Shown in pieces: positions 1 to 64,000 of a DNA stretch of 64,000 bases. The notes below the pieces were generated by a model, which worked only from the letters and a program-made list of their open reading frames with translations, was not told the DNA's origin and made no database searches. Positions within the stretch are counted from its first letter, which is position 1; every line of letters starts with the position of its first letter. The position numbers and the translations under genes were made by a program. Origin of the DNA: Rhynochetos jubatus (Eukaryota; Chordata; Aves; Eurypygiformes; Rhynochetidae); assembly GCA_027574665.1 (NCBI GenBank), contig CM050659.1, positions 16,593,001 to 16,657,000 on the forward strand. The letters run 5' to 3'.

Positions 1-178
1 AGAGGAGCACGACACTGCACCGACATGGCTCCTTCCGCAGCTTTACCTAGCCAGAACCCAGGGGGGGCCGTGGCCGGAAACCGCGGTCGGCAACTTCTAG
101 GGTTAGGGTTAGGGTTAGGGTCCGGAGAACCAGAAAGCCCACAGCTCCAGGGATAATTGGGATTGCAAAGGCCTGCCA
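1..178 (+). repeat. First unit, cut by the window edge, with a 1-bp insertion
   Basis: The first unit begins at the AGAGGAGCAC landmark and the next begins at 179, so it is 178 bp. The extra base is an A at about 45, giving CTTTACCTAG where other units read CTTTCCTAG. It also has CCGCAG in place of the usual CCCCAG or CCCCTG. Confidence 0.8.
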
Positions 179-628
179 AGAGGAGCACGACACTGCACAG
201 ACATGGCTCCTTCCCCTGCTTTCCTAGCCAGAACCCAGGGGGGGCCATGGCCGGAAACCGTGGTCGGCAAATTCTAGGGTTAGGGTTAGGGTTAGGGTCC
301 GGAGAAGCAGAAAGCCCACAGCTCCAGGGATAATTGGGATTGCAAAGGCCTGCCAAGAGGAGCACGACACTGCACAGACATGGCTCCTTCCCCTGCTTTC
401 CTAGCCAGAACCCAGGGTGGGCCTTCGCCGGAAACCGCGGTCGGCAACTTCTAGGGTTAGGGTTAGGGTTAGGGTCCGGAGAACCAGAAAGCCCACATCT
501 CCAGGGATAATTGGGATTGCAAAGGCCTGCCAAGAGGAGCACGACACTGCACCGACATGGCTCCCTCCCCAGCTTTCCTAGCCAGAACTCAGGGGGGGCC
601 GTGGCCGGAAACCGCGGTCGGCAACTTC

Positions 629-645
629 TAGGGTTAGGGTTAGGG
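629..645 (+). repeat. Short telomeric tract TAGGG(TTAGGG)2 of a 171-bp unit (example)
   Basis: This unit lacks exactly one hexamer, which makes it 171 bp and leaves three GGG runs instead of four. The same shortened tract recurs in about 23 units, near 0.97, 1.69, 2.92, 3.62, 4.68, 5.03, 6.08, 7.14, 9.08, 15.98, 28.89, 29.60, 29.77, 31.18, 31.88, 32.05, 33.11, 33.63, 39.64, 39.82, 41.23 and 43.88 kb. I saw none between 44.3 and 64 kb. I saw no unit with four or more hexamers. Confidence 0.88.
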
Positions 646-1292
646 TCCGGAGAACCAGAAAGCCCACAGCTCCAGGGATAATTGGGATTGCAAAGGCCTG
701 CCAAGAGGAGCACGACACTGCACAGACATGGCTCCTTCCCCTGCTTTCCTAGCCAGAACCCGGGGGGGGCCGTGGCCGGAAACCGCGGTCGGCAACTTCT
801 AGGGTTAGGGTTAGGGTTAGGGTCCGGAGAACCAGAAAGCCCACAGCTCCAGGGATAATTGGGATTGCAAAGGCCTGCCAAGAGGAGCACGACACTGCAC
901 CGACATGGCTCCTTCCCCAGCTTTCCTAGCCAGAACCCAGGGGGGGCCGTGGCCGGAAACCGCGGTCGGCAACTTCTAGGGTTAGGGTTAGGGTCCGGAG
1001 AACCAGAAAGCCCACAGCTCCAGGGATAATTGGGATTGCAAAGGCCTGCCAAGAGGAGCACGACAGTGCACAGACATGGCTCCTTCCCCAGCTTTCCTAG
1101 CCAGAACCCGGGGGGGGCCTTCGCCGGAAACCGCGGTCGGCAACTTCTAGGGTTAGGGTTAGGGTTAGGGTCCGGAGAACCAGAAAGCCCACAGCTCCAG
1201 GGATAATTGGGATTGCAAAGGCCTGCCAAGAGGAGCACGACACTGCACAGACATGGCTCCTTCCCCTGCTTTCCTAGCCAGAACCCGGGGGG

Positions 1293-1315
1293 GGCCGTGG
1301 CCGGAAACCGCGGTC
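1293..1315 (+). other. Hairpin-capable segment next to the telomeric tract (example)
   Basis: GGCCGTGG (1293-1300) can pair with CCGCGGTC (1308-1315) around the 7-nt loop CCGGAAA. That gives an 8-bp stem with two G-T wobbles, and both would be G-U pairs in a plus-strand RNA. It lies 9 nt before the telomeric tract and overlaps the end of the G-run. The segment is present in most units but broken in the variant families with CCTTCG, CCATGCCC or CCATAACC in place of CCGTGGCC. The pairing is seen in the sequence; any biological role is unknown. Confidence 0.5.
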
Positions 1316-1324
1316 GGCAACTTC

Positions 1325-1347
1325 TAGGGTTAGGGTTAGGGTTAGGG
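1325..1347 (+). repeat. Telomeric tract TAGGG(TTAGGG)3 inside the monomer (example)
   Basis: The tract is 23 nt with four GGG runs separated by TTA, which meets the standard pattern for an intramolecular G-quadruplex. It also contains three overlapping TAGGGTTA matches, the core of the site bound by the Myb domains of shelterin proteins TRF1 and TRF2. The complementary strand is the C-rich (CCCTAA) sequence. An equivalent tract is present in every unit examined, always with the G-rich strand on the plus strand. If the array is subtelomeric, that orientation means the chromosome end lies to the right. Protein binding is inferred, not shown. Confidence 0.93.
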
Positions 1348-3231
1348 TCCGGAGAACCAGAAAGCCCACAGCTCCAGGGATAATTGGGATTGCAAAGGCC
1401 TGCCAAGAGGAGCACGACACTGCACAGACATGGCTCCTTCCCCAGCTTTCCTAGCCAGAACCCAGGGCAGGCCGTGGCCGGAAACCGCGGTCGGCAACTT
1501 CTAGGGTTAGGGTTAGGGTTAGGGTCCGGAGAACCAGAAAGCCCACAGCTCCAGGGATAATTGGGATTGCAAAGGCCTGCCAAGAGGAGCACGACACTGC
1601 ACCGACATGGCTCCTTCCCCAGCTTTCCTAGCCAGAACCCAGGGGGGGCCGTGGCCGGAAACCGCGGTCGGCAACTTCTAGGGTTAGGGTTAGGGTCCGG
1701 AGAACCAGAAAGCCCACAGCTCCAGGGATAATTGGGATTGCAAAGGCCTGCCAAGAGGAGCACGACACTGCACAGACATGGCTCCTTCCCCTGCTTTCCT
1801 AGCCAGAACCCGGGGGGGGCCGTGGCCGGAAACCGCGGTCGGCAACTTCTAGGGTTAGGGTTAGGGTTAGGGTCCGGAGAACCAGAAAGCCCACAGCTCC
1901 AGGGATAATTGGGATTGCAAAGGCCTGCCAAGAGGAGCACGACACTGCACAGACATGGCTCCTTCCCCTGCTTTCCTAGCCAGAACCCGGGAGGGGCCGT
2001 GGCCCGAAACCGCGGTCGGCAACTTCTAGGGTTAGGGTTAGGGTTAGGGTCCGGAGAACCAGAAAGCCCACAGCTCCAGGGATAATTGGGATTGCAAAGG
2101 CCTGCCAAGAGGAGCACGACACTGCACAGACATGGCTCCTTCCGCAGCTTTCCTAGCCAGAACCCAGGGCAGGCCGTGGCTGGAAACCGCGGTCGGCAAC
2201 TTCTAGGGTTAGGGTTAGGGTTAGGGTCCGGAGAAGCAGAAAGCCCACAGCTCCAGGGATAATTGGGATTGCAAAGGCCTGCCAAGAGGAGCACGACACT
2301 GCACCGACATGGCTCCCTCCCCAGCTTTCCTAGCCAGAACTCAGGGGGGGCCGTGGCCGGAAACCGCGGTCGGCAACTTCTAGGGTTAGGATTAGGGTTA
2401 GGGTCCGGAGAACCAGAAAGCCCACAGCTCCAGGGATAATTGGGATTGCAAAGGCCTGCCAAGAGGAGCACGACACTGCACAGACATGGCTCCTTCCCCT
2501 GCTTTCCTAGCCAGAACCCGGGGGGGGCCGTGGCCGGAAACCGCGGTCGGCAACTTCTAGGGTTAGGGTTAGGGTTAGGGTCCGGAGAACCAGAAAGCCC
2601 ACAGCTCCAGGGATAATTGGGATTGCAAAGGCCTGCCAAGAGGAGCACGACACTGCACAGACATGGCTCCTTCCCCAGCTTTCCTAGCCAGAACCCAGGG
2701 CAGGCCGTGGCCGGAAACCGCGGTTGGCAACTTCTAGGGTTAGGGTTAGGGTTAGGGTCCGGAGAACCAGAAAGCCCACAGCTCCAGGGATAATTGGGAT
2801 TGCAAAGGCCTGCCAAGAGGAGCACGACACTGCACCGACATGGCTCCTTCCCCAGCTTTCCTAGCCAGAACCCAGGGGGGGCCTTGGACGGAAACCGCGG
2901 TCGGCAACTTCTAGGGTTAGGGTTAGGGTCCGGAGAACCAGAAAGCCCACAGCTCCAGGGATAATTGGGATTGCAAAGGCCTGCCAAGAGGATCACGACA
3001 CTGCACAGACATGGCTCCTTCCCCTGCTTTCCTAGACAGAGCCCGGGGGGGGGCCGTGGCCGGAAACCGCGGTTGGCAACTTCTAGGGTTAGGGTTAGGG
3101 TTAGGGTCCGGAGAACCAGAAAGCCCACAGCTCCAGGGATAATTGGGATTGCAAAGGCCTGCCAAGAGGAGCACGACACTGCACAGACATGGCTCCTTCC
3201 CCAGCTTTCCTAGCCAGAACCCGGGGGGGGC

Positions 3232-3248
3232 CTTCGCTGGAAACCGCG
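3232..3248 (+). other. CENP-B-box-like variant, site 1
   Basis: The 17-mer CTTCGCTGGAAACCGCG matches 13 of 17 positions of the mammalian CENP-B box as I recall it (CTTCGTTGGAAACGGGA). The TTCG core and the central GGAAAC are intact, but the essential 3' CGGG reads CCGC. The majority unit has GTGG in place of TTCG. Binding is therefore doubtful; this may be chance. Confidence 0.35.
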
Positions 3249-3360
3249 GTCGGCAACTTCTAGGGTTAGGGTTAGGGTTAGGGTCCGGAGAACCAGAAAG
3301 CCCACAGCTCCAGGGATAATTGGGATTGCAAAGGCCTGCCAAGAGGAGCACGACACTGCA

Positions 3361-4760
3361 CCGACATGGCTCCCTCCCCAGCTTTCCTAGCCAGAACTCA
3401 GGGGGGGCCGTGGCCGGAAACCGCGGTCGGCAACTTCTAGGGTTAGGGTTAGGGTTAGGGTCTGGAGAACCAGAAAGCCCACAGCTCCAGGGATAATTGG
3501 GATTGCAAAGGCCTGCCAAGAGGAGCACGACACTGCACCGACATGGCTCCTTCCCCAGCTTTCCTAGCCAGAACCCAGGGGGGGCCGTGGCCGGAAACCG
3601 CGGTCGGCAACTTCTAGGGTTAGGGTTAGGGTCCGGAGAACCAGAAAGCCCACAGCTCCAGGGATAATTGGGATTGCAAAGGCCTGCCAAGAGGAGCACG
3701 ACACTGCACAGACATGGCTCCTTCCCCTGCTTTCCTAGCCAGAACCCGGGGGGGGGGCCGTGGCCGGAAACCGCGGTCGGCAACTTCTAGGGTTAGGGTT
3801 AGGGTTAGGGTCCGGAGAATCAGAAAGCCCACAGCTCCAGGGATAATTGGGATTGCAAAGGCCTGCCAAGAGGAGCACGACACTGCACAGACATGGCTCC
3901 TTCCCCAGCTTTCCTAGCCAGAACCCAGGGGGGGCCTTCGCCGGAAACCGCGGTCGGCAACTTCTAGGGTTAGGGTTAGGGTTAGGGTCCGGAGAACCAG
4001 AAAGCCCACAGCTCCAGGGATAATTGGGATTGCAAAGGCCTGCCAAGAGGAGCACGACACTGCACAGACATGGCTCCTTCCCCTGCATTCCTAGCCAGAA
4101 CCCGGGGGGGGCCGTGGCCGGAAACCGCGGTCGGCAACTTCTAGGGTTAGGGTTAGGGTTAGGGTCCGGAGAACCAGAAAGCCCACAGCTCCAGGGATAA
4201 TTGGGATTGCAAAGGCCTGCCAAGAGGAGCACGACACTGCACAGACATGGCTCCTTCCCCTGCTTTCCTAGCCAGAACCCGGGGGGGGCTGTGGCCGGAA
4301 ACCGCGGTCGGCAACTTCTAGGGTTAGGGTTAGGGTTAGGGTCCGGAGAACCAGAAAGCCCACAGCTCCAGGGATAATTGGGATTGCAAAGGCCTGCCAA
4401 GAGGAGCACGACACTGCACAGACATGGCTCCTTCCCCAGCTTTCCTAGCCAGAACCCAGGGCAGGCCGTGGCCGGAAACCGCGGTCGGCAACTTCTAGGG
4501 TTAGGGTTAGGGTTAGGGTCCGGAGAACCAGAAAGCCCACAGCTCCAGGGATAATTGGGATTGCAAAGGCCTGCCAAGAGGAGCACGACACTGCACAGAC
4601 ATGGCTCCTTCCCCAGCTTTCCTAGCCAGAACCCAGGGGGGGCCGTGGCCGGAAACCGCGGTCGGCAACTTCTAGGGTTAGGGTTAGGGTCCGGAGAAGC
4701 AGAAAGCCCACAGCTCCAGGGATAATTGGGATTGCAAAGGCCTGCCAAGAGGATCACGAC
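3361..4760 (+). repeat. Higher-order block, copy 1 (offset about 2.46 kb)
   Basis: A series of rare landmarks occurs here and again at 5.82-7.22 kb in the same order: CCGACATGGCTCCCTCC (3361/5824), GTCTGGAG (3461/5924), GAGAATCAG (3811/6272 for the preceding TCCGG), CCTTCG (3935/6396), CCCTGCATTCC (4081/6542) and GAGGATCACG (4751/7212). The offset is 2,463 bp at first and 2,461 bp after the unit near 3.75 kb, whose counterpart near 6.21 kb has a shorter G-run and GACAGAGCCC. Beyond 4.76 kb the copies go out of register by about one 171-bp unit. Confidence 0.75.
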
Positions 4761-5823
4761 ACTGCACAGACATGGCTCCTTCCCCTGCTTTCCTAGACAG
4801 AGCCCGGGGGGGGCCGTGGCCGGAAACCGCGGTTGGCAACTTCTAGGGTTAGGGTTAGGGTTAGGGTCCGGAGAACCAGAAAGCCCACAGCTCCAGGGAT
4901 AATTGGGATTGCAAAGGCCTGCCAAGAGGAGCACGACACTGCACAGACATGGCTCCTTCCCCAGCTTTCCTAGCCAGAACCCAGGGGGGGCCGTGGCCGG
5001 AAACCGCGGTCGGCAACTTCTAGGGTTAGGGTTAGGGTCCGGAGAACCAGAAAGCCCACAGCTCCAGGAATAATTGGGATTGCAAAGGCCTGCCAAGAGG
5101 AGCACGACACTGCACAGACATGGCTCCTTCCCCTGCTTTCATAGCCAAAACCCAGGGGGGGCCGTGGCCGGAAACCGCGGTCGGCAACTTCTAGGGTTAG
5201 GGTTAGGGTTAGGGTCCGGAGAACCAGAAAGCCCACAGCTCCAGGGATAATTGGGATTGCAAAGGCCTGCCAAGAGGAGCACGACACTGCACAGACATGG
5301 CTCCTTCCCCTGCTTTCCTAGCCAGAACCCGGGGGGGGCCGTGGCCGGAAACCGCGGTCGGCAACTTCTAGGGTTAGGATTAGGGTTAGGGTCCGGAGAA
5401 CCAGAAAGCCCACAGCTCCAGGGATAATTGGGATTGTAAAGGCCTGCCAAGAGGAGCATGACACTGTACCGACATGGCTCCTTCCCCAGCTTTCCTAGCC
5501 AGAACTCAGGGGGGGCCATAACCAGAAACAGCGGTCAGCAACTTCTAGGGTTAGGGTTAGGGTTAGGGTCCGGAGAACCAGAAAGCCCACAGCTCCAGGG
5601 ATAATTGGGATTGCAAAGGCCTGCCAAGAGGAGCACGACACTGCACAGACATGGCTCCTTCCCCAGCTTTCCTAGCCAGAACCCGGGGGGGGGCCGTGGC
5701 CGGAAACCGCGGTCGGCAACTTCTAGGGTTAGGGTTAGGGTTAGGGTCCGGAGAACCAGAAAGCCCACAGCTCCAGGGATAATTGGGATTGCAAAGGCCT
5801 GCCAAGAGGAGCACGACACTGCA

Positions 5824-11871: not shown

Positions 11872-11888
11872 CTTCGCTGGAAACCGCG
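11872..11888 (+). other. CENP-B-box-like variant, site 2
   Basis: This is the same 17-mer as at 3,232, in a domain 2 unit that otherwise carries CCCAGGGGGGG. The 3' CGGG is again missing. Confidence 0.33.
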
Positions 11889-41400: not shown

Positions 41401-44287
41401 TAGGGTTAGGGTCCGGAGAACCAGAAAGCCCACAGCTCCAGGGATAATTGGGATTGCAAAGGCCTGCCAAGAGGAGCACGACACTGCACAGACATGGCTC
41501 CTTCCCCTGCTTTCCTAGCCAGAACCCAGGGGGGGCCGTGGCCGGAAACCGCGGTCGGCAACTTCTAGGGTTAGGGTTAGGGTTAGGGTCCGGAGAACCA
41601 GAAAGCCCACAGCTCCAGGGATAATTGGGATTGCAAAGGCCTGCCAAGAGGAGCACGACACTGCACCGACATGGCTCCCTCCCCAGCTTTCCTAGCCAGA
41701 ACCCAGGGGGGGCCGTGGCCGGAAACCGCGGTCGGCAACTTCTAGGGTTAGGGTTAGGGTTAGGGTCCGGAGAACCAGAAAGCCCACAGCTCCAGGGATA
41801 ATTGGGATTGCAAAGGCCTGCCAAGAGGAGCACGACACTGCACAGACATGGCTCCTTCCCCTGCTTTCCTAGCCAGAACCCGGGGGGGGCCGTGGCCAGA
41901 AACCGCGGTCGGCAACTTCTAGGGTTAGGGTTAGGGTTAGGGTCCGGAGAACCAGAAAGCCCACAGCTCCAGGGATAATTGGGATTGCAAAGGCCTGCCA
42001 AGAGGAGCACGACACTGCACAGACATGGCTCCTTCCCCAGCTTTCCTAGCCAGAACCCAGGGGTTGCCGTGGCCGGAAACCGCGGTCGGCAACTTCTAGG
42101 GTTAGGGTTAGGGTTAGGGTCCGGAGAACCAGAAAGCCCACAGCTCCAGGGATAATTGGGATTGCAAAGGCCTGCCAAGAGGAGCACGACACTGCACAGA
42201 CATGGCTCCTTCCCCTGCTTTCCTAGCCAGAACCCAGGGCGGGCCGTGGCCGGAAACCGCGGTCGGCAACTTCTAGGGTTAGGGTTAGGGTTAGGGTCCG
42301 GAGAACCAGAAAGCCCACAGCTCCAGGGATAATTGGGATTGCAAAGGCCTGCCAAGAGGAGCACGACACTGCACAGACATGGCTCCTTCCCCTGCTTTCC
42401 TAGCCAGAACCCGGGGGGGGCCGTGGCCGGAAACCGCGGTCGGCAACTTCTAGGGTTAGGGTTAGGGTTAGGGTCCGGAGAACCAGAAAGCCCACAGCTC
42501 CAGGGATAATTGGGATTGCAAAGGCCTGCCAAGAGGAGCACGACACTGCACAGACATGGCTCCCTCCCCTGCTTTCCTAGCCAGAACCCAGGGGGGGCCG
42601 TGGCTGGAAACCGCGGTCGGCAACTTCTAGGGTTAGGGTTAGGGTTAGGGTCCGGAGAACCAGAAAGCCCACAGCTCCAGGGATAATTGGGATTGCAAAG
42701 GCCTGCCAAGAGGAGCACGACACTGCACAGACATGGCTCCTTCCCCAGCTTTCCTAGCCAGAACCCAGGGCAGGCCGTGGCCGGAAACCGCGGTCGGCAA
42801 CTTCTAGGGTTAGGGTTAGGGTTAGGGTCCGGAGAACCAGAAAGCCCACAGCTCCAGGGATAATTGGGATTGCAAAGGCCTGCCAAGAGGAGCACGACAC
42901 TGCACAGACATGGCTCCTTCCCCAGCTTTCCTAGCCAGAACCCAGGGCAGGCCGTGGCCGGAAACCGCGGTCGGCAACTTCTAGGGTTAGGGTTAGGGTT
43001 AGGGTCCGGAGAACCAGAAAGCCCACAGCTCCAGGGATAATTGGGATTGCAAAGGCCTGCCAAGAGGAGCACGACACTGCACAGACATGGCTCCTTCCCC
43101 AGCTTTCCTAGACAGAACCCAGGGGTGGCCGTGGCCGGAAACCGCGGTCGGCAACTTCTAGGGTTAGGGTTAGGGTTAGGGTCCGGAGAACCAGAAAGCC
43201 CACAGCTCCAGGGATAATTGGGATTGCAAAGGCCTGCCAAGAGGAGCACGACACTGCACAGACATGGCTCCTTCCCCAGCTTTCCTAGCCAGAACCCAGG
43301 GGTTGCCGTGGCCGGAAACCGCGGTCGGCAACTTCTAGGGTTAGGGTTAGGGTTAGGGTCCGGAGAACCAGAAAGCCCACAGCTCCAGGGATAATTGGGA
43401 TTGCAAAGGCCTGCCAAGAGGAGCACAACACTGCACAGACATGGCTCCTTCCCCTGCTTTCCTAGCCAGAACCTGGGGGGGGCCGTGGCCGGAAACCGCG
43501 GTCGGCAACTTCTAGGGTTAGGGTTAGGGTTAGGGTCCGGAGAACCAGAAAGCCCACAGCTCCAGGGATAATTGGGATTGCAAAGGCCTGCCAAGAGGAG
43601 CACGACACTGCACAGACATGGCTCCTTCCGCAGCTTTCCTAGCCAGAACCCAGGGGGGGCCGTGGCCGGAAACCGCGGTCGGCAACTTCTAGGGTTAGGG
43701 TTAGGGTTAGGGTCCGGAGAACCAGAAAGCCCACAGCTCCAGGGATAATTGGGATTGCAAAGGCCTGCCAAGAGGAGCACGACACTGCACAGACATGGCT
43801 CCTTCCCCTGCTTTCCTAGACAGAACCCAGGGGGGGCCATGCCCGGAAACCGCGGTCGGCAACTTCTAGGGTTAGGGTTAGGGTCCGGAGAACCAGAAAG
43901 CCCACAGCTCCAGGGATAATTGGGATTGCAAAGGCCTGCCAAGAGGAGCACGACACTGCACAGACATGGCTCCCTCCCCTGCTTTCCTAGCCAGAACCCG
44001 GGGGGGGCCGTGGCCGGAAACCGCGGTCGGCCACTTCTAGGGTTAGGGTTAGGGTTAGGGTCCGGAGAACCAGAAAGCCCACAGCTCCAGGGATAATTGG
44101 GATTGCAAATGCCTGCCAAGAGGAGCACGACACTGCACAGACATGGCTCCCTCCCCTGCTTTCCTAGCCATAACCCAGGGGGGGCCGTGGCCGGAAACCG
44201 CGGTCGGCAACTTCTAGGGTTAGGGTTAGGGTTAGGGTCCGGAGAACCAGAAAGCCCACAGCTCCAGGGATAATTGGGATTGCAAAT
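26420..44287 (+). repeat. Array domain 3: AGGGGTTGCC / CCATGCCCGG unit families
   Basis: The CCATAACC and GAGCATGAC types are absent here. Instead, units with AGGGGTTGCCGTGG (first near 27.08 kb, last near 43.31 kb), CCATGCCCGGAAAC and GGGTAAGGG predominate, with CAGGCATGG near 30.74, 32.67, 33.20, 40.61 and 40.79 kb. 171-bp units cluster at 28.9-33.6 and 39.6-43.9 kb. Unit order around 31.9-32.7 kb resembles that around 39.7-40.6 kb. The landmarks CCCAGTGGGG (32,179 and 39,943) and CCCGGGTGGGG (32,531 and 40,472) are shared, and the second copy has one extra unit between them. Confidence 0.72.
34080..37060 (+). repeat. 885-bp (5-unit) higher-order repeat
   Basis: The rare GCACTACAC variant falls at 35,126, 36,011 and 36,896, twice exactly 885 bp (5 x 177) apart. 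Between these markers the unit types run AGGGGTTGCC, G-run, CAGGGCAGG, CTCCCTCCCC, then GCACTACAC, with CCATGCCCGG nearby. The order is the same in the first two periods. In the third, CAGGGCAGG and CCATGCCC units are swapped in. A partial copy without the GCACTACAC marker precedes it from about 34.26 kb. Confidence 0.78.
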
Positions 44288-47200
44288 GCCTGCCAAGAGG
44301 AGCACGACACTGCACAGACATGGCTCCTTCCCCAGCTTTCCTAGCCAGAACCCGGGGGGGGCCGTGGCCGGAAACCGCGGTCGGCAACTTCTAGGGTTAG
44401 GGTTAGGGTTAGGGTCCGGAGAACCAGAAAGCCCACAGCTCCAGGGATAATTGGGATTGCAAAGGCCTGCCAAGAGGAGCACGACACTGCACAGACATGG
44501 CTCCTTCCCCTGCTTTCCTAGCCAGAACCCAGGGGGGGCCGTGGCCGGAAACCGCGGTCGGCAACTTCTAGGGTTAGGGTTAGGGTTAGGGTCCGGAGAA
44601 CCAGAAAGCCCACAGCTCCAGGGATAATTGGGATTGCAAAGGCCTGCCAAGAGGAGCACGACACTGCACAGACATGGCTCCTTCCCCTGCTTTCCTAGCC
44701 AGAACCCAGGGGGGGCCTTCGCCGGAAACCGCGGTCGGCAACTTCTAGGGTTAGGGTTAGGGTTAGGGTCCGGAGAACCAGAAAGCCCACAGCTCCAGGG
44801 ATAATTGGGATTGCAAAGGCCTGCCAAGAGGAGCACGACACTGCACAGACATGGCTCCTTCCCCTGCTTTCCTAGCCAGAACCCGGGAGGGGCCGTGGCC
44901 GGAAACCGCGGTCGGCAACTTCTAGGGTTAGGGTTAGGGTTAGGGTTCGGAGAACCAGAAAGCCCACAGCTCCAGGGATAATTGGGATTGCAAAGGCCTG
45001 CCAAGAGGAGCACGACACTGCACAGACATGGCTCCTTCCCCAGCTTTCCTAGCCAGAACCCAGGGCAGGCCGTGGCCGGAAACCGCGGTCGGCAACTTCT
45101 AGGGTTAGGGTTAGGGTTAGGGTCCGGAGAACCAGAAAGCCCACAGCTCCAGGGATAATTGGGATTGCAAAGGCCTGCCAAGAGGAGCACGACACTGCAC
45201 AGACATGGCTCCTTCCCCTGCTTTCCTAGCCAGAACCCAGGGGGGGCCCTGGCCGGAAACCGCGGTCGGCAACTTCTAGGGTTAGGGTTAGGGTTAGGGT
45301 CCGGAGAACCAGAAAGCCCACAGCTCCAGGGATAATTGGGATTGCAAAGGCCTGCCAAGAGGAGCACGACACTGCACAGACATGGCTCCTTCCCCTGCTT
45401 TCCTAGCCAGAACCCAGGGGGGGCCTTCGCCGGAAACCGCGGTCGGCAACTTCTAGGGTTAGGGTTAGGGTTAGGGTCCGGAGAACCAGAAAGTCCACAG
45501 CTCCAGGGATAATTGGGATTGCAAAGGCCTGCCAAGAGGAGCACGACACTGCACAGACATGGCTCCTTCCCCTGCTTTCCTAGCCAGAACCCAGGTGGGG
45601 CCGTGGCCGGAAACCGCGGTCGGCAACTTCTAGGGTTAGGGTTAGGGTTAGGGTCCGGAGAACCAGAAAGCCCACAGCTCCAGGGATAATTGGGATTGCA
45701 AAGGCCTGCCAAGAGGAGCACGACACTGCACAGACATGGCTGCTTCCCCAGCTTTCCTAGCCAGAACCCAGGGGGGGCCGTGGCCGGAAACCGCGGTCGG
45801 CAACTTCTAGGGTTAGGGTTAGGGTTAGGGTCCTGAGAACCAGAAAGCCCACAGCTCCAGGGATAATTGGGATTGCAAAGGCCTGCCAAGAGGAGCACGA
45901 CACTGCACAGACATGGCTCCTTCCCCTGCTTTCCTAGCCAGAACCCAGGGGGGGCCTTGGCCGGAAACCGCGGTCGGCAACTTCTAGGGTTAGGGTTAGG
46001 GTTAGGGTCCGGAGAACCAGAAAGCCCACAGCTCCAGGGATAATTGGGATTGCAAAGGCCTGCCAAGAGGAGCACGACACTGCACAGACATGGCTCCTTC
46101 CCCAGCTTTCCTAGCCAGAACCCGGGGGGGGCCGTGGCCGGAAACCGCGGTCGGCAACTTCTAGGGTTAGGGTTAGGGTTAGGGTCCGGAGAACCAGAAA
46201 GCCCACAGCTCCAGGGATAATTGGGATTGCAAAGGCCTGCCAAGAGGAGCACGACACTGCACAGACATGGCTCCTTCCCCTGCTTTCCTACCCAGAACCC
46301 GGGAGGGGCCGTGGCCGGAAACCGCGGTCGGCAACTTCTAGGGTTAGGGTTAGGGTTAGGGTCCGGAGAACCAGAAAGCCCACAGCTCCAGGGATAATTG
46401 GGATTGCAAAGGCCTGCCAAGAGGAGCACGACACTGCACAGACATGGCTCCTTCCCCTGCTTTCCTAGCCAGAACCCAGGGGGGGCCGTGGCCGGAAACC
46501 GCGGTCGGCAACTTCTAGGGTTAGGGTTAGGGTTAGGGTCCGGAGAACCAGAAAGCCCACAGCTCCAGGGATAATTGGGATTGCAAAGGCCTGCCAAGAG
46601 GAGCACGACACTGCACAGACATGGCTCCTTCCCCTGCTTTCCTAGCCAGAACCCAGGGGGGGCCCTGGCCGGAAACCGCGGTCGGCAACTTCTAGGGTTA
46701 GGGTTAGGGTTAGGGTCCGGAGAACCAGAAAGCCCACAGCTCCAGGGATAATTGGGATTGCAAAGGCCTGCCAAGAGGAGCACGACACTGCACAGACATG
46801 GCTCCTTCCCCAGCTTTCCTAGCCAGAACCCAGGGGGGGCCGTGGCCGGAAACCGCGGTCGGCAACTTCTAGGGTTAGGGTTAGGGTTAGGGTCCGGAGA
46901 ACCAGAAAGTCCACAGCTCCAGGGATAATTGGGATTGCAAAGGCCTGCCAAGAGGAGCACGACACTGCACAGACATGGCTCCTTCCCCTGCTTTCCTAGC
47001 CAGAACCCAGGTGGGGCCGTGGCCGGAAACCGCGGTCGGCAACTTCTAGGGTTAGGGTTAGGGTTAGGGTCCGGAGAACCAGAAAGCCCACAGCTCCAGG
47101 GATAATTGGGATTGCAAAGGCCTGCCAAGAGGAGCACGACACTGCACAGACATGGCTCCTTCCCCAGCTTTCCTAGCCAGAACCCAGGGGGGGCCGTGGC

Positions 47201-49952
47201 CGGAAACCGCGGTCGGCAACTTCTAGGGTTAGGGTTAGGGTTAGGGTCCTGAGAACCAGAAAGCCCACAGCTCCAGGGATAATTGGGATTGCAAAGGCCT
47301 GCCAAGAGGAGCACGACACTGCACAGACATGGCTCCTTCCCCTGCTTTCCTAGCCAGAACCCAGGGGGGGCCTTGGCCGGAAACCGCGGTCGGCAACTTC
47401 TAGGGTTAGGGTTAGGGTTAGGGTCCGGAGAACCAGAAAGCCCACAGCTCCAGGGATAATTGGGATTGCAAAGGCCTGCCAAGAGGAGCACGACACTGCA
47501 CCGACATGGCTCCCTCCCCAGCTTTCCTAGCCAGAACCCAGGGGGGGCCGTGGCCGGAAACCGCGGTCGGCAACTTCTAGGGTTAGGGTTAGGGTTAGGG
47601 TCCGGAGAACCAGAAAGCCCACAGCTCCAGGGATAATTGGGATTGCAAAGGCCTGCCAAGAGGAGCACGACACTGCACAGACATGGCTCCTTCCCCTGCT
47701 TTCCTAGCCAGAACCCGGGGGGGGGGCCGTGGCCGGAAACCGCGGTCGGCAACTTCTAGGGTTAGGGTTAGGGTTAGGGTCCGGAGAACCAGAAAGCCCA
47801 CAGCTCCAGGGATAATTGGGATTGCAAAGGCCTGCCAAGAGGAGCACGACACTGCACAGACAAGGCTCCTTCCCCTGCTTTCCTACCCAGAACCCGGGAG
47901 GGGCCGTGGCCGGAAACCGCGGTCGGCAACTTCTAGGGTTAGGGTTAGGGTTAGGGTCCGGAGAACCAGAAAGCCCACAGCTCCAGGGATAATTGGGATT
48001 GCAAAGGCCTGCCAAGAGGAGCACGACACTGCACAGACATGGCTCCTTCCCCTGCTTTCCTAGCCAGAACCCAGGGGGGGCCGTGGCCGGAAACCGCGGT
48101 CGGCAACTTCTAGGGTTAGGGTTAGGGTTAGGGTCCGGAGAACCAGAAAGCCCAAAGCTCCAGGGATAATTGGGATTGCAAAGGCCTGCCAAGAGGAGCA
48201 CGACACTGCACAGACATGGCTCCTTCCCCTGCTTTCCTAGCCAGAACCCAGGGCAGGCCGTGGCCGGAAACCGCGGTCGGCAACTTCTAGGGTTAGGGTT
48301 AGGGTTAGGGTCCGGAGAACCAGAAAGCCCACAGCTCCAGGGATAATTGGGATTGCAAAGGCCTGCCAAGAGGAGCACGACACTGCACAGACATGGCTCC
48401 TTCCCCAGCTTTCCTAGACAGAACCCAGGGGGGGCCGTGGCCGGAAACCACGGTCGGCAACTTCTAGGGTTAGGGTTAGGGTTAGGGTCCGGAGAACCAG
48501 AAAGCCCACAGCTCCAGGGATAATTGGGGTTGCAAAGGCCTGCCAAGAGGAGCACGACACTGCACAGACATGGCTCCTTCCCCTGCTTTCCTAGCCAGAA
48601 CCCAGGGGGGGCCGTGGCCGGAAACCGCGGTCGGCAACTTCTAGGGTTAGGGTTAGGGTTAGGGTCCGGAGAAGCAGAAAGCGCACAGCTCCAGGGATAA
48701 TTGGGATTGCAATGGCCTGCCAAGAGGAGCACGACACTGCACAGACATGGCTCCTTCCCCTGCTTTCCTAGACAGAACCCGGGGGGGGCCGTGGCCGGAA
48801 ACCGCGGTCGGCAACTTCTAGGGTTAGGGTTAGGGTTAGGGTCCGGAGAACCAGAAAGCCCACAGCTCCAGGGATAATTGGGATTGCAAAGGCCTGCCAA
48901 GAGGAGCACGACACTGCACAGACATGGCTCCTTCCCCAGCTTTCCTAGCCAGAACCCAGGGGGGGCCGTGGCCGGAAACCGCGGTCGGCAACTTCTAGGG
49001 TTAGGGTTAGGGTTAGGGTCCGGAGAACCAGAAAGCCCACAGCTCCAGGGATAATTGGGATTGCAAAGGCCTGCCAAGAGGAGCACGACACTGCACAGAC
49101 ATGGCTCCTTCCCCTGCTTTCCTAGCCAGAACCCGGGAGGGGCCGTGGCCGGAAACCGCGGTCGGCAACTTCTAGGGTTAGGGTTAGGGTTAGGGTCCGG
49201 AGAACCAGAAAGCCCACAGCTCCAGGGATAATTGAATTGCAAAGGCCTGCCAAGAGGAGCACGACACTGCACAGACATGGCTCCTTCCCCTGCTTTCCTA
49301 GCCAGAACCCGGGGGGGGCCGTGGCCGGAAACCGCGGTCGGCAACTTCTAGGGTTAGGGTTAGGGTTAGGGTCCGGAGAAGCAGAAAGCCCACAGCTCCA
49401 GGGATAATTGGGATTGCAAAGGCCTGCCAAGAGGAGCACGACACTGCACACACATGGCTCCTTCCCCAGCTTTCCTAGCCAGAACCCAGGGGGGGCCGTG
49501 GCCGGAAACCGCGGTCGGCAACTTCTAGGTTTAGGGTTAGGGTTAGGGTCCGGAGAACCAGAAAGCCCACAGCTCCAGGGATAATTGGGATTGCAAAGGC
49601 CTGCCAAGAGGAGCACGACACTGCACCGACATGGCTCCTTCCCCTGCTTTCCTAGCCAGAACCCGGGGGGGGCCGTGGCCGGAAACCGCGGTCGGCAACT
49701 TCTAGGGTTAGGGTTAGGGTTAGGGTCCGGAGAACCAGAAAGCCCACAGCTCCAGGGATAATTGGGATTGCAAAGGCCTGCCAAGAGGAGCACGACACTG
49801 CACAGACATGGCTCCTTCCCCAGCTTTCCTAGCCAGAACCCAGGGCAGGCCGTGGCCGGAAACCGCGGTCGGCAACTTCTAGGGTTAGGGTTAGGGTTAG
49901 GGTCCGGAGAACCAGAAAGCCCACAGCTCCAGGGATAATTGGGATTTCAAAG
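44288..49952 (+). repeat. 5,665-bp segmental duplication, copy A (32 units)
   Basis: Every rare variant I compared in this interval recurs 5,665 bp downstream: GGTTCGGAG, CCCTGG, AAAGTCCAC, CAGGTGGGG, TGGCTGCTTCC, GTCCTGAG, CTACCCAG, the G10 run near 47.72 kb, CCCAAAGCTCC, GGGGTTGCAA, AAAGCGCACAG and the 1-bp deletion ATTGAATTGC near 49.24 kb. The length equals 32 x 177 + 1, explained by two extra Gs at the G10 run and one deleted base at ATTGAATTGC. The left boundary is set by mismatches at 44,282 and 44,287. The junction lies within 49,953-49,980, where both sides agree. The only differences noticed inside are at 46,842 and 46,844. Confidence 0.92.
45247..48080 (+). repeat. Nested 8-unit (1,416-bp) higher-order repeat inside copy A
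   Basis: CCCTGG (T at 45,250 and 46,666), AAAGTCCAC (T at 45,494 and 46,910) and GTCCTGAG (T at 45,834 and 47,250) all recur at exactly 1,416 bp, which is 8 units. The CTACCCAG landmark recurs after 9 units plus 2 bp (46,291 and 47,886), because a CTCCCTCCCC unit and the G10 run lie within the second period. The same nested pair exists in copy B 5,665 bp downstream. Confidence 0.8.
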
Positions 49953-52900
49953 GCCTGCCAAGAGGAGCACGACACTGCACAGACATGGCTCCTTCCCCAG
50001 CTTTCCTAGCCAGAACCCGGGGGGGGCCGTGGCCGGAAACCGCGGTCGGCAACTTCTAGGGTTAGGGTTAGGGTTAGGGTCCGGAGAACCAGAAAGCCCA
50101 CAGCTCCAGGGATAATTGGGATTGCAAAGGCCTGCCAAGAGGAGCACGACACTGCACAGACATGGCTCCTTCCCCTGCTTTCCTAGCCAGAACCCAGGGG
50201 GGGCCGTGGCCGGAAACCGCGGTCGGCAACTTCTAGGGTTAGGGTTAGGGTTAGGGTCCGGAGAACCAGAAAGCCCACAGCTCCAGGGATAATTGGGATT
50301 GCAAAGGCCTGCCAAGAGGAGCACGACACTGCACAGACATGGCTCCTTCCCCTGCTTTCCTAGCCAGAACCCAGGGGGGGCCTTCGCCGGAAACCGCGGT
50401 CGGCAACTTCTAGGGTTAGGGTTAGGGTTAGGGTCCGGAGAACCAGAAAGCCCACAGCTCCAGGGATAATTGGGATTGCAAAGGCCTGCCAAGAGGAGCA
50501 CGACACTGCACAGACATGGCTCCTTCCCCTGCTTTCCTAGCCAGAACCCGGGAGGGGCCGTGGCCGGAAACCGCGGTCGGCAACTTCTAGGGTTAGGGTT
50601 AGGGTTAGGGTTCGGAGAACCAGAAAGCCCACAGCTCCAGGGATAATTGGGATTGCAAAGGCCTGCCAAGAGGAGCACGACACTGCACAGACATGGCTCC
50701 TTCCCCAGCTTTCCTAGCCAGAACCCAGGGCAGGCCGTGGCCGGAAACCGCGGTCGGCAACTTCTAGGGTTAGGGTTAGGGTTAGGGTCCGGAGAACCAG
50801 AAAGCCCACAGCTCCAGGGATAATTGGGATTGCAAAGGCCTGCCAAGAGGAGCACGACACTGCACAGACATGGCTCCTTCCCCTGCTTTCCTAGCCAGAA
50901 CCCAGGGGGGGCCCTGGCCGGAAACCGCGGTCGGCAACTTCTAGGGTTAGGGTTAGGGTTAGGGTCCGGAGAACCAGAAAGCCCACAGCTCCAGGGATAA
51001 TTGGGATTGCAAAGGCCTGCCAAGAGGAGCACGACACTGCACAGACATGGCTCCTTCCCCTGCTTTCCTAGCCAGAACCCAGGGGGGGCCTTCGCCGGAA
51101 ACCGCGGTCGGCAACTTCTAGGGTTAGGGTTAGGGTTAGGGTCCGGAGAACCAGAAAGTCCACAGCTCCAGGGATAATTGGGATTGCAAAGGCCTGCCAA
51201 GAGGAGCACGACACTGCACAGACATGGCTCCTTCCCCTGCTTTCCTAGCCAGAACCCAGGTGGGGCCGTGGCCGGAAACCGCGGTCGGCAACTTCTAGGG
51301 TTAGGGTTAGGGTTAGGGTCCGGAGAACCAGAAAGCCCACAGCTCCAGGGATAATTGGGATTGCAAAGGCCTGCCAAGAGGAGCACGACACTGCACAGAC
51401 ATGGCTGCTTCCCCAGCTTTCCTAGCCAGAACCCAGGGGGGGCCGTGGCCGGAAACCGCGGTCGGCAACTTCTAGGGTTAGGGTTAGGGTTAGGGTCCTG
51501 AGAACCAGAAAGCCCACAGCTCCAGGGATAATTGGGATTGCAAAGGCCTGCCAAGAGGAGCACGACACTGCACAGACATGGCTCCTTCCCCTGCTTTCCT
51601 AGCCAGAACCCAGGGGGGGCCTTGGCCGGAAACCGCGGTCGGCAACTTCTAGGGTTAGGGTTAGGGTTAGGGTCCGGAGAACCAGAAAGCCCACAGCTCC
51701 AGGGATAATTGGGATTGCAAAGGCCTGCCAAGAGGAGCACGACACTGCACAGACATGGCTCCTTCCCCAGCTTTCCTAGCCAGAACCCGGGGGGGGCCGT
51801 GGCCGGAAACCGCGGTCGGCAACTTCTAGGGTTAGGGTTAGGGTTAGGGTCCGGAGAACCAGAAAGCCCACAGCTCCAGGGATAATTGGGATTGCAAAGG
51901 CCTGCCAAGAGGAGCACGACACTGCACAGACATGGCTCCTTCCCCTGCTTTCCTACCCAGAACCCGGGAGGGGCCGTGGCCGGAAACCGCGGTCGGCAAC
52001 TTCTAGGGTTAGGGTTAGGGTTAGGGTCCGGAGAACCAGAAAGCCCACAGCTCCAGGGATAATTGGGATTGCAAAGGCCTGCCAAGAGGAGCACGACACT
52101 GCACAGACATGGCTCCTTCCCCTGCTTTCCTAGCCAGAACCCAGGGGGGGCCGTGGCCGGAAACCGCGGTCGGCAACTTCTAGGGTTAGGGTTAGGGTTA
52201 GGGTCCGGAGAACCAGAAAGCCCACAGCTCCAGGGATAATTGGGATTGCAAAGGCCTGCCAAGAGGAGCACGACACTGCACAGACATGGCTCCTTCCCCT
52301 GCTTTCCTAGCCAGAACCCAGGGGGGGCCCTGGCCGGAAACCGCGGTCGGCAACTTCTAGGGTTAGGGTTAGGGTTAGGGTCCGGAGAACCAGAAAGCCC
52401 ACAGCTCCAGGGATAATTGGGATTGCAAAGGCCTGCCAAGAGGAGCACGACACTGCACAGACATGGCTCCTTCCCCAGCTTTCCTAGCCAGAACCCAGGG
52501 GGGGCCTTCGCCGGAAACCGCGGTCGGCAACTTCTAGGGTTAGGGTTAGGGTTAGGGTCCGGAGAACCAGAAAGTCCACAGCTCCAGGGATAATTGGGAT
52601 TGCAAAGGCCTGCCAAGAGGAGCACGACACTGCACAGACATGGCTCCTTCCCCTGCTTTCCTAGCCAGAACCCAGGTGGGGCCGTGGCCGGAAACCGCGG
52701 TCGGCAACTTCTAGGGTTAGGGTTAGGGTTAGGGTCCGGAGAACCAGAAAGCCCACAGCTCCAGGGATAATTGGGATTGCAAAGGCCTGCCAAGAGGAGC
52801 ACGACACTGCACAGACATGGCTCCTTCCCCAGCTTTCCTAGCCAGAACCCAGGGGGGGCCGTGGCCGGAAACCGCGGTCGGCAACTTCTAGGGTTAGGGT

Positions 52901-55617
52901 TAGGGTTAGGGTCCTGAGAACCAGAAAGCCCACAGCTCCAGGGATAATTGGGATTGCAAAGGCCTGCCAAGAGGAGCACGACACTGCACAGACATGGCTC
53001 CTTCCCCTGCTTTCCTAGCCAGAACCCAGGGGGGGCCTTGGCCGGAAACCGCGGTCGGCAACTTCTAGGGTTAGGGTTAGGGTTAGGGTCCGGAGAACCA
53101 GAAAGCCCACAGCTCCAGGGATAATTGGGATTGCAAAGGCCTGCCAAGAGGAGCACGACACTGCACCGACATGGCTCCCTCCCCAGCTTTCCTAGCCAGA
53201 ACCCAGGGGGGGCCGTGGCCGGAAACCGCGGTCGGCAACTTCTAGGGTTAGGGTTAGGGTTAGGGTCCGGAGAACCAGAAAGCCCACAGCTCCAGGGATA
53301 ATTGGGATTGCAAAGGCCTGCCAAGAGGAGCACGACACTGCACAGACATGGCTCCTTCCCCTGCTTTCCTAGCCAGAACCCGGGGGGGGGGCCGTGGCCG
53401 GAAACCGCGGTCGGCAACTTCTAGGGTTAGGGTTAGGGTTAGGGTCCGGAGAACCAGAAAGCCCACAGCTCCAGGGATAATTGGGATTGCAAAGGCCTGC
53501 CAAGAGGAGCACGACACTGCACAGACAAGGCTCCTTCCCCTGCTTTCCTACCCAGAACCCGGGAGGGGCCGTGGCCGGAAACCGCGGTCGGCAACTTCTA
53601 GGGTTAGGGTTAGGGTTAGGGTCCGGAGAACCAGAAAGCCCACAGCTCCAGGGATAATTGGGATTGCAAAGGCCTGCCAAGAGGAGCACGACACTGCACA
53701 GACATGGCTCCTTCCCCTGCTTTCCTAGCCAGAACCCAGGGGGGGCCGTGGCCGGAAACCGCGGTCGGCAACTTCTAGGGTTAGGGTTAGGGTTAGGGTC
53801 CGGAGAACCAGAAAGCCCAAAGCTCCAGGGATAATTGGGATTGCAAAGGCCTGCCAAGAGGAGCACGACACTGCACAGACATGGCTCCTTCCCCTGCTTT
53901 CCTAGCCAGAACCCAGGGCAGGCCGTGGCCGGAAACCGCGGTCGGCAACTTCTAGGGTTAGGGTTAGGGTTAGGGTCCGGAGAACCAGAAAGCCCACAGC
54001 TCCAGGGATAATTGGGATTGCAAAGGCCTGCCAAGAGGAGCACGACACTGCACAGACATGGCTCCTTCCCCAGCTTTCCTAGACAGAACCCAGGGGGGGC
54101 CGTGGCCGGAAACCACGGTCGGCAACTTCTAGGGTTAGGGTTAGGGTTAGGGTCCGGAGAACCAGAAAGCCCACAGCTCCAGGGATAATTGGGGTTGCAA
54201 AGGCCTGCCAAGAGGAGCACGACACTGCACAGACATGGCTCCTTCCCCTGCTTTCCTAGCCAGAACCCAGGGGGGGCCGTGGCCGGAAACCGCGGTCGGC
54301 AACTTCTAGGGTTAGGGTTAGGGTTAGGGTCCGGAGAAGCAGAAAGCGCACAGCTCCAGGGATAATTGGGATTGCAATGGCCTGCCAAGAGGAGCACGAC
54401 ACTGCACAGACATGGCTCCTTCCCCTGCTTTCCTAGACAGAACCCGGGGGGGGCCGTGGCCGGAAACCGCGGTCGGCAACTTCTAGGGTTAGGGTTAGGG
54501 TTAGGGTCCGGAGAACCAGAAAGCCCACAGCTCCAGGGATAATTGGGATTGCAAAGGCCTGCCAAGAGGAGCACGACACTGCACAGACATGGCTCCTTCC
54601 CCAGCTTTCCTAGCCAGAACCCAGGGGGGGCCGTGGCCGGAAACCGCGGTCGGCAACTTCTAGGGTTAGGGTTAGGGTTAGGGTCCGGAGAACCAGAAAG
54701 CCCACAGCTCCAGGGATAATTGGGATTGCAAAGGCCTGCCAAGAGGAGCACGACACTGCACAGACATGGCTCCTTCCCCTGCTTTCCTAGCCAGAACCCG
54801 GGAGGGGCCGTGGCCGGAAACCGCGGTCGGCAACTTCTAGGGTTAGGGTTAGGGTTAGGGTCCGGAGAACCAGAAAGCCCACAGCTCCAGGGATAATTGA
54901 ATTGCAAAGGCCTGCCAAGAGGAGCACGACACTGCACAGACATGGCTCCTTCCCCTGCTTTCCTAGCCAGAACCCGGGGGGGGCCGTGGCCGGAAACCGC
55001 GGTCGGCAACTTCTAGGGTTAGGGTTAGGGTTAGGGTCCGGAGAAGCAGAAAGCCCACAGCTCCAGGGATAATTGGGATTGCAAAGGCCTGCCAAGAGGA
55101 GCACGACACTGCACACACATGGCTCCTTCCCCAGCTTTCCTAGCCAGAACCCAGGGGGGGCCGTGGCCGGAAACCGCGGTCGGCAACTTCTAGGTTTAGG
55201 GTTAGGGTTAGGGTCCGGAGAACCAGAAAGCCCACAGCTCCAGGGATAATTGGGATTGCAAAGGCCTGCCAAGAGGAGCACGACACTGCACCGACATGGC
55301 TCCTTCCCCTGCTTTCCTAGCCAGAACCCGGGGGGGGCCGTGGCCGGAAACCGCGGTCGGCAACTTCTAGGGTTAGGGTTAGGGTTAGGGTCCGGAGAAC
55401 CAGAAAGCCCACAGCTCCAGGGATAATTGGGATTGCAAAGGCCTGCCAAGAGGAGCACGACACTGCACAGACATGGCTCCTTCCCCAGCTTTCCTAGCCA
55501 GAACCCAGGGCAGGCCGTGGCCGGAAACCGCGGTCGGCAACTTCTAGGGTTAGGGTTAGGGTTAGGGTCCGGAGAACCAGAAAGCCCACAGCTCCAGGGA
55601 TAATTGGGATTTCAAAG
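49953..55617 (+). repeat. 5,665-bp segmental duplication, copy B (32 units)
   Basis: This block directly follows copy A and matches it base for base in everything I compared except two positions in one unit (52,507 T and 52,509 C, against G and G in copy A). It ends with the same GGGATTTCAAAGG variant that ends copy A. After it the sequence departs at 55,646 (TGCACCG against TGCACAG). Direct adjacency and near identity indicate a very recent event, or possibly an assembly duplication. Confidence 0.9.
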
Positions 55618-59896: not shown

Positions 59897-62550
59897 TTGG
59901 CTCCTTCCCCTGCTTTCCTAGCCAGAACCCGTGGGGGGCCGTGGCCGGAAACCGCGGTCGGCAACTTCTAGGGTTAGGGTTAGGGTTCGGGTCCGGAGAA
60001 CCAGAAAGCCCACAGCTCCAGGGATAATTGGGATTGCAAAGGCCTGCCAAGAGGAGCATGACACTGTACCGACATGGCTCCCTCCCCAGCTTTCCTAGCC
60101 AGAACCCAGGGGGGGCCGTGGCCGGAAACCGCGGTCGGCAACTTCTAGGGTTAGGGTTAGGGTTAGGGTCCGGAGAACCAGAAAGCCCACAGCTCCAGGG
60201 ATAATTGGGATTGCAAAGGCCTGCCAAGAGGAGCACGACACTGCACAGACATGGCTCCTTCCCCTGCTTTCCTAGCCAGAACCCGGGAGGGGCCGTGGCC
60301 GGAAACCGCGGTCGGCGACTTCTAGGGTTAGGGTTAGGGTTAGGGTCCGGAGAACCAGAAAGCCCGCAGCTCCAGGGATAATTGGGATTGTAAAGGCCTG
60401 CCAAGAGGAGCATGACACTGCACCGACATGGCTCCCTCCACAGCTTTCCTAGCCAGAACTCAGGGGGGGCCGTGGCCGGAAACCGCGGTCGGCAACTTCT
60501 AGGGTTAGGGTTAGGGTTAGGGTCCGGAGAACCAGAAAGCCCACAGCTCCAGGGATAATTGGGATTGCAAAGGCCTGCCAAGAGGAGCACGACACTGCAC
60601 AGACATGGCTCCTTCCCCTGCTTTCCTAGCCAGAACCCGGGAGGGGCCGTGGCCGGAAACCGTGGTCGGCGACTTCTAGGGTTAGGGTTAGGGTTAGGGT
60701 CCGGAGAACCAGAAAGCCCGCAGCTCCAGGGATAATTGGGATTGTAAAGGCCTGCCAAGAGGAGCATGACACTGCACCGACATGGCTCCCTCCCCAGCTT
60801 TCCTAGCCAGAACTCAGGGGGGGCCATGCCCAGAAACCGCGGTCGGCAACTTCTAGGGTTAGGGTTAGGGTTAGGGTCCGGAGAACCAGAAAGCCCACAG
60901 CTCCAGGGATAATTGGGATTGCAAAGGCCTGCCAAGAGGAGCATGACACTGCACCGACATGGCTCCCTCCCCAGCTTTCCTAGCCAGAACTCAGGGGGGG
61001 CCATGCCCAGAAACCGCGGTCGGCAACTTCTAGGGTTAGGGTTAGGGTTAGGGTCCGGAGAACCAGAAAGCCCACAGCTCCAGGGATAATTGGGATTGCA
61101 AAGGCCTGCCAAGAGGAGCACGACACTGCACAGACATGGCTCCTTCCCCAGCTTTCCTAGCCAGAACCCAGGGGGGGCCATGCCCAGAAACCGCGGTCGG
61201 CAACTTCTAGGGTTAGGGTTAGGGTTAGGGTCCGGAGAAGCAGAAAGCCCACAGCTCCAGGGATAATTGGGATTGCAAAGGCCTGCCAAGAGGAGCACGA
61301 CACTGCACAGACTTGGCTCCTTCCCCTGCTTTCCTAGCCAGAACCCGGGGGGGGCCGTGGCCGGAAACCGCGGTCGGCAACTTCTAGGGTTAGGGTTAGG
61401 GTTCGGGTCCGGAGAACCAGAAAGCCCACAGCTCCAGGGATAATTGGGATTGCAAAGGCCTGCCAAGAGGAGCATGACACTGTACCGACATGGCTCCCTC
61501 CCCAGCTTTCCTAGCCAGAACCCAGGGGGGGCCGTGGCCGGAAACCGCGGTCGGCAACTTCTAGGGTTAGGGTTAGGGTTAGGGTCCGGAGAACCAGAAA
61601 GCCCACAGATCCAGGGATAATTGGGATTGCAAAGGCCTGCCAAGAGGAGCACGACACTGCACAGACATGGCTCCTTCCCCTGCTTTCCTAGCCAGAACCC
61701 GGGAGGGGCCGTGGCCGGAAACCGCGGTCGGCGACTTCTAGGGTTAGGGTTAGGGTTAGGGTCCGGAGAACCAGAAAGCCCGCAGCTCCAGGGATAATTG
61801 GGATTGTAAAGGCCTGCCAAGAGGAGCATGACACTGCACCGACATGGCTCCCTCCCCAGCTTTCCTAGCCAGAACTCAGGGGGGGCCATGCCCATAAACC
61901 GCGGTCGGCAACTTCTAGGGTTAGGGTTAGGGTTAGGGTCCGGAGAACCAGAAAGCCCACAGCTCCAGGGATAATTGGGATTGCAAAGGCCTGCCAAGAG
62001 GAGCACGACACTGCACAGACATGGCTCCTTCCCCTGCTTTCCTAGCCAGAACCCGGGAGGGGCCGTGGCCGGAAACCGGTTCGGCGACTTCTAGGGTTAG
62101 GGTTAGGGTTAGGGTCCGGAGAACCAGAAAGCCCGCAGCTCCAGGGATAATTGGGATTGTAAAGGCCTGCCAAGAGGAGCATGACACTGCACCGACATGG
62201 CTCCCTCCCCAGCTTTCCTAGCCAGAACTCAGGGGGGGCCATGCCCAGAAACCGCGGTCGGCAACTTCTAGGGTTAGGGTTAGGGTTAGGGTCCGGAGAA
62301 CCAGAAAGCCCACAGCTCCAGGGATAATTGGGATTGCAAAGGCCTGCCAAGAGGAGCATGACACTGCACCGTCATGGCTCCCTCCCCAGCTTTCCTAGCC
62401 AGAACTCAGGGGGGGCCATGCCCAGAAACCGCGGTCGGCAACTTCTAGGGTTAGGGTTAGGGTTAGGGTCCGGAGAAGCAGAAAGCCCACAGCTCCAGGG
62501 ATAATTGGGATTGCAAAGGCCTGCCAAGAGGAGCACGACACTGCACAGAC
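59897..62550 (+). repeat. About 2,654-bp (15-unit) higher-order block, copy 1
   Basis: AGACTTGGC occurs at 59,897, 61,313, 62,551 and 63,967 (T position), at spacings of 1,416, 1,238 and 1,416 bp, that is 8, 7 (minus 1 bp) and 8 units. CTCCCTCCACAGC at 60,440 and 63,094 gives the overall period of 2,654 bp. The missing base is at AAACCGGTTCGG near 62.08 kb, where other units read AAACCGCGGTCGG. Confidence 0.78.
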
Positions 62551-64000
62551 TTGGCTCCTTCCCCTGCTTTCCTAGCCAGAACCCGGGGGGGGCCGTGGCC
62601 GGAAACCGCGGTCGGCAACTTCTAGGGTTAGGGTTAGGGTTCGGGTCCGGAGAACCAGAAAGCCCACAGCTCCAGGGATAATTGGGATTGCAAAGGCCTG
62701 CCAAGAGGAGCATGACACTGTACCGACATGGCTCCCTCCCCAGCTTTCCTAGCCAGAACCCAGGGGGGGCCGTGGCCGGAAACCGCGGTCGGCAACTTCT
62801 AGGGTTAGGGTTAGGGTTAGGGTCCGGAGAACCAGAAAGCCCACAGCTCCAGGGATAATTGGGATTGCAAAGGCCTGCCAAGAGGAGCACGACACTGCAC
62901 AGACATGGCTCCTTCCCCTGCTTTCCTAGCCAGAACCCGGGAGGGGCCGTGGCCGGAAACCGCGGTCGGCGACTTCTAGGGTTAGGGTTAGGGTTAGGGT
63001 CCGGAGAACCAGAAAGCCCGCAGCTCCAGGGATAATTGGGATTGTAAAGGCCTGCCAAGAGGAGCATGACACTGCACCGACATGGCTCCCTCCACAGCTT
63101 TCCTAGCCAGAACTCAGGGGGGGCCGTGGCCGGAAACCGCGGTCGGCAACTTCTAGGGTTAGGGTTAGGGTTAGGGTCCGGAGAACCAGAAAGCCCACAG
63201 CTCCAGGGATAATTGGGATTGCAAAGGCCTGCCAAGAGGAGCACGACACTGCACAGACATGGCTCCTTCCCCTGCTTTCCTAGCCAGAACCCGGGAGGGG
63301 CCGTGGCCGGAAACCGTGGTCGGCGACTTCTAGGGTTAGGGTTAGGGTTAGGGTCCGGAGAACCAGAAAGCCCGCAGCTCCAGGGATAATTGGGATTGTA
63401 AAGGCCTGCCAAGAGGAGCATGACACTGCACCGACATGGCTCCCTCCCCAGCTTTCCTAGCCAGAACTCAGGGGGGGCCATGCCCAGAAACCGCGGTCGG
63501 CAACTTCTAGGGTTAGGGTTAGGGTTAGGGTCCGGAGAACCAGAAAGCCCACAGCTCCAGGGATAATTGGGATTGCAAAGGCCTGCCAAGAGGAGCATGA
63601 CACTGCACCGACATGGCTCCCTCCCCAGCTTTCCTAGCCAGAACTCAGGGGGGGCCATGCCCAGAAACCGCGGTCGGCAACTTCTAGGGTTAGGGTTAGG
63701 GTTAGGGTCCGGAGAACCAGAAAGCCCACAGCTCCAGGGATAATTGGGATTGCAAAGGCCTGCCAAGAGGAGCACGACACTGCACAGACATGGCTCCTTC
63801 CCCAGCTTTCCTAGCCAGAACCCAGGGGGGGCCATGCCCAGAAACCGCGGTCGGCAACTTCTAGGGTTAGGGTTAGGGTTAGGGTCCGGAGAAGCAGAAA
63901 GCCCACAGCTCCAGGGATAATTGGGATTGCAAAGGCCTGCCAAGAGGAGCACGACACTGCACAGACTTGGCTCCTTCCCCTGCTTTCCTAGCCAGAACCC
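62551..64000 (+). repeat. 15-unit higher-order block, copy 2, cut by the window end
   Basis: The unit order repeats that from 59,897, including the TTCGGG tract variant, the CTCCCTCCACAGC unit and the GCCCGCAGC units. It runs to the window edge, so its full length cannot be seen. Confidence 0.75.

Follow-up and report, generated by a model that had tools for sequence, protein, structure and literature searches.

A GC-rich, nucleosome-sized satellite with a telomere-repeat block in its 177-bp monomer

FA-SAT, a satellite of the cat with a monomer of about 483 bp, has a telomere-like origin, and the heavy satellite of baleen whales is GC-rich and terminal, with telomere hexamers said to be contained in its unit of about 422 bp. 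One study in human cells reported binding of TRF1 and TRF2 to some satellite and interstitial telomeric repeats. The satellite PaB6 of Prospero autumnale is described as having seven TTAGGG per 249-bp monomer, and its loci are reported to light up with a telomere probe (PMC4273535). A satellite kind with TTAGGG in each monomer is therefore already in print. MarmoSAT, a subterminal satellite of callitrichine monkeys, is given a unit of 170/171 bp (PMC7767330, PMC13041921), and a review presents the large heterochromatic telomere-repeat blocks of the Chinese hamster as a major satellite component (PMC6410037).

The DNA analysed here (the window) is 64,000 nucleotides long, and all of it (1-64000, + strand) is a single head-to-tail array that passes both window ends. 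The tandem-repeat program TRF returned a period of 177 bp with 362.3 copies, 96% matches and 0% indels, and the autocorrelation was maximal at 177 (0.903) and at multiples of 177. These values bear out a preliminary description of the window as a satellite in which a telomere block recurs at a fixed phase of 177 bp. Monomers were cut at a conserved anchor, which gave 361 full monomers. The first of these (167-343, + strand) is used as the example unit and sets the register, in which the consensus starts AAAGGCCTGCC. Most monomers were 177 bp long (324), the others being 171 bp (23), 176 bp (6), 178 bp (5) and 179 bp (3). No foreign insert lies between anchors, because all anchor spacings fall within 165-195. 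Mean identity was 97.7% to the consensus and 96.1% between pairs of monomers, and 208 of the 361 sequences were distinct. The G+C content of the window was 59.3% (58.2-60.1% across 2-kb steps). The array is thus long, head-to-tail and built of near-identical, non-coding-looking units, as satellite DNA is, and the 177-bp unit is a nucleosome-sized, GC-rich tandem satellite.

Sub-repeats were looked for inside the 177-bp monomer and none were detected. A search of Rfam with positions 1-1500 of the window (E up to 1) gave 0 matches. When one strand of a monomer (window 1-177) was folded with DNA parameters and no quadruplex term, its stability was not notable, as 184 of 200 shuffles folded at least as well. 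The minus strand of the window contains stop-free stretches reaching 4868 codons. Both 177 and 171 are divisible by three, so that a reading frame with no stop in a single monomer continues open across many, and these long open frames are most likely mechanical rather than coding.

The full monomer consists of about 153 bp of other sequence and a 24-nt telomere block, CTAGGG(TTAGGG)3, at consensus positions 108-131 (274-297, + strand, in the example monomer). The block had this exact form in 305 of the 361 monomers, an 18-nt form in 21 and a substituted form in 35, two of which were also short; 23 monomers were one hexamer short. The tract of 17-23 nt and the 154-bp rest given previously correspond to the 24 (or 18) nt and 153 bp found here, the difference being one of edge placement. 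TTAGGG occurred 1029 times on the + strand of the window and once on the - strand. This total of 1030 compares with a mean of 81.6 on both strands in 100 dinucleotide shuffles, for which the sd was 8.5 and the highest count 98; the one-strand expectation by a simpler resampling was 52.8. The further claim of a telomere block in every monomer holds in the sense that at least one TTAGGG was present in 361/361. Exactly three were present in 308 monomers and four in 1.

The 153-bp remainder resembled the TTAGGG repeat no more than shuffled sequence did, with 310 and 72 of 500 shuffles scoring as high on the two strands. These scores lend no support to the remainder as a decayed telomere repeat; a make-up of internal sub-repeats was likewise unsupported. 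The array also differs from a heterochromatic ITS, which would consist mainly of telomere hexamers: the block accounts for about 24 of the 177 bp in each unit, and the remainder is not TTAGGG-like.

Substitutions were counted at 43 of 8526 cells in the block and at 1291 of 55227 in the remainder, a figure that becomes 604 of 43679 with positions 67-98 also removed. Each cell stands for a monomer rather than for an independent event, and six-base deletions fall outside the rate. When the 177 circular 24-nt segments of the monomer were ranked by low substitution rate, the block came 15th, with lower rates in segments covering 142-176. The block is therefore kept better than average and yet is not the best-conserved part of the monomer. 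Unusual conservation of the block was unsupported by this rank, and there was no sign of special upkeep, although its lower substitution rate would also fit selection. The 23 hexamer-short monomers represented 18 distinct backgrounds, and 6 of these were found with the full block as well. There was no hexamer gain in the 361 monomers, because the only lengths besides 177 were 171 and 176-179. Loss of hexamers without gain, together with the rank of the block, fits passive carriage and is compatible with function.

Local duplication was evident along the array. Monomers 250-281 (counted from 0) are repeated as the next 32, so that the first copy (44284-49948, + strand) is directly followed by the second (49949-55613, + strand), the two differing at 3 of 5,665 bases. 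This duplication indicates recent unequal exchange. The stretch 44284-55613 was either duplicated very recently by exchange or doubled in assembly. Runs of at least four consecutive monomers matching at 98.8% or more numbered 28, with lags of 2 to 65, and mean identity went from 0.963 at distances of 1-10 monomers to 0.958 at 201-360.

The most divergent part of the monomer is a variable box at consensus positions 69-87 (235-253, + strand, in the example monomer), which holds 10 of the 17 positions with a diversity of 0.1 or more. With CpG positions left out, 8 of 14 fell within one 20-nt stretch. Clustering at least as strong arose in 12 of 20,000 permutations, in a test that overstates independence, because the ten box sites are linked in 46 haplotypes. 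The box is G-rich, with multi-base haplotypes, and most other positions barely vary. Several haplotypes were partly regional (monomers counted from 0). Of the 24 monomers (among 361) with the variant CATAACC, 23 lie within monomers 30-148 and one is at 249; GGGGTTGCC was present in 21 of 361, all within monomers 152-244; and CATGCCC was present in 29 of 361, with 18 within monomers 319-360. This distribution suggests successive local amplifications. The clustering of variation at 69-87 is not accounted for by passive carriage alone, and could stem from a high mutability of this G-rich stretch, from conversion by sequence from elsewhere or from contact of the box with a protein.

CpG was observed in the window at 0.45 of its expected frequency. 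Transitions stood at 4.5% at CpG positions compared to 0.8% at other G/C. Four of the seven CpGs lie inside positions 67-98. Outside these positions there were 82 transitions in 2166 CpG cells, 51 of the 82 at position 22 alone, compared to 151 transitions in 41513 non-CpG cells outside both 67-98 and the block. This excess of change at CpG suggests a CpG-methylating genome. Taken with TTAGGG telomeres, it points most simply to a vertebrate host, TTAGGG-bearing plants such as Asparagales being a less simple alternative.

Collectively, these results make it likely that the array is an ordinary, recently recombining satellite in which the interstitial telomere tract of a founder has been copied passively, in a eukaryote with TTAGGG telomeres and probably with CpG methylation. 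On this reading, a short tract of interstitial telomere repeat would have been present in the founder unit, which was then multiplied by unequal crossing-over and conversion, with the tract carried along as one of its segments. Unequal exchange and conversion are expected to give duplications, shared and regional variants and a slight fall of identity with distance; local duplications and shared, partly regional variants are present in the window, in an array of a single orientation and period. An ordinary satellite of this sort would presumably be heterochromatic and have a subtelomeric or pericentromeric place, and its telomere tract would have no selected telomere function. Roles of the array in TRF binding or in recombination are possible.

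By analogy with brown lemurs, the array might instead be a functional centromere repeat of its host in which a telomere motif was co-opted, which we consider unlikely. The nucleosome-sized monomer and the long homogeneous array agree with such a role, and telomere repeats at Eulemur centromeres are reported as a precedent (PMC13228423). However, no long-range higher-order unit was found in the window, where identity by lag is nearly flat. A CENP-B box was also missing, though many centromere repeats are without one. The motif has nine essential bases, and with the set used here the best matches reached 7 of 9 on the + strand, in 23 places, and 6 of 9 on the - strand; 7 or more were reached by 2036 of 5000 resampled monomers. 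Variable boxes bearing TTCG (18 of 361 monomers) looked at first like a degenerate CENP-B box and proved to be at chance level.

A subterminal array that originated in telomere capture or in end-to-end exchange, and that uses its TTAGGG blocks to recombine with telomeres even now, is quite improbable. The presence of the telomere motif in all units in one orientation would suit this origin, and the subterminal MarmoSAT satellites are described as exchanging among chromosome ends (PMC13041921). Such exchange sits poorly with the lack of hexamer gain and with the lack of any pure telomere run within the window, in which the only 6-bp arrays returned by the program TRF had 4.2 copies.

Selection for a shelterin platform appears very unlikely to explain the array. 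Under this proposal, a TRF1/TRF2 site in each nucleosome-length unit would gather telomere proteins, and the array would act as a buffer or a heterochromatin anchor. YTAGGGTTR, the TRF binding-site consensus in the form used here, matched 1017 sites on the + strand and 0 on the - strand; with the same consensus, 347 of the 361 monomers had two or more sites, and GGG(TTAGGG)3, a four-tract quadruplex unit, was found in 307 places. At 1017 per 64 kb, however, the sites have about one tenth of the density found in a pure telomere, which has one per 6 bp, and titration would therefore need an array total of many megabases. Other parts of the monomer are more conserved than the block, which also speaks against a platform. 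The same low probability attaches to a two-part version, in which each unit of a phased shelterin-binding satellite would join a constant minimal telomere site, made up either of three TRF sites that overlap or of a single four-tract quadruplex, to a 19-bp diversifying box. Alpha satellite has an A/B box, and by this analogy the 19-bp box, in its several multi-base haplotypes, would serve a second, diversifying binder. An artefact of repeat assembly, affecting the 5,665-bp duplication or the whole array, would explain why the adjacent copies differ by only 3 mismatches but is highly improbable, since 208 of 361 monomers are distinct and the variants elsewhere have no fixed period, unlike those of a looped or copied contig.

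As it stands, the array is an orderly repeat of an already described kind, and no result obtained here shows the telomere stretch to have a function. No description of a 177-bp satellite with a TTAGGG block was recognised in the main texts of the open-licence papers listed, and one may still be in print. Exact conserved stretches had 0 matches among viral and prokaryote contigs, a result with little bearing on eukaryotes. If the family is unnamed, it adds another clear example of a telomere tract fixed within a satellite, and would be useful for asking whether nucleosome-spaced TTAGGG sites draw shelterin. In the host species, TTAGGG probes and read counts would overstate the telomere signal.

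The heavy satellite of baleen whales, as generally described, is GC-rich and carries telomere hexamers like the array here but in a unit of about 422 bp rather than 177. Satellites with 177-bp units are also on record for radish and cucumber. The minichromosome repeat of Trypanosoma brucei is described with both a 177-bp period and TTAGGG telomeres (PMC12975129, PMC6712790) and was ruled out, since its two diagnostic primers, TBR1 and TBR2, gave 0 matches in the window with up to 3 mismatches allowed.

MarmoSAT, FA-SAT and the lemur Ec6/Ec548 are neighbours in kind, likened by description. In brown lemurs, Ec6 with Ec548 is reported to place TTAGGG in very long interstitial arrays, made almost purely of the 6-bp repeat and interspersed with 548-bp repeats, in contrast to the block in each 177-bp unit here (PMC13228423). 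FA-SAT is described as rich in GC and as lying at telomeres and at some centromeres (PMC6379292). MarmoSAT has a similar tandem unit size, its described 170/171 bp standing beside 177 bp in 324/361 and a minority form of 171 bp in 23/361 monomers here, and its published accounts report no array-specific homogenisation (PMC7767330, PMC13041921). The marmoset genome paper, however, does not use the word TTAGGG in its main text (PMC13041921). As described, PaB6 differs in its 249-bp monomer, its sub-repeats and its dispersed TTAGGG accompanied by degenerate ones, whereas the unit here is 177 bp long, with a compact block and no sub-repeats detected. The oddity implied by the preliminary description was thus overstated with PaB6 in print, while the satellite with telomere blocks is itself real. 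What the two share, by description, is the architecture of intact TTAGGG inside each monomer (PMC4273535), which extends here to all 361 units.
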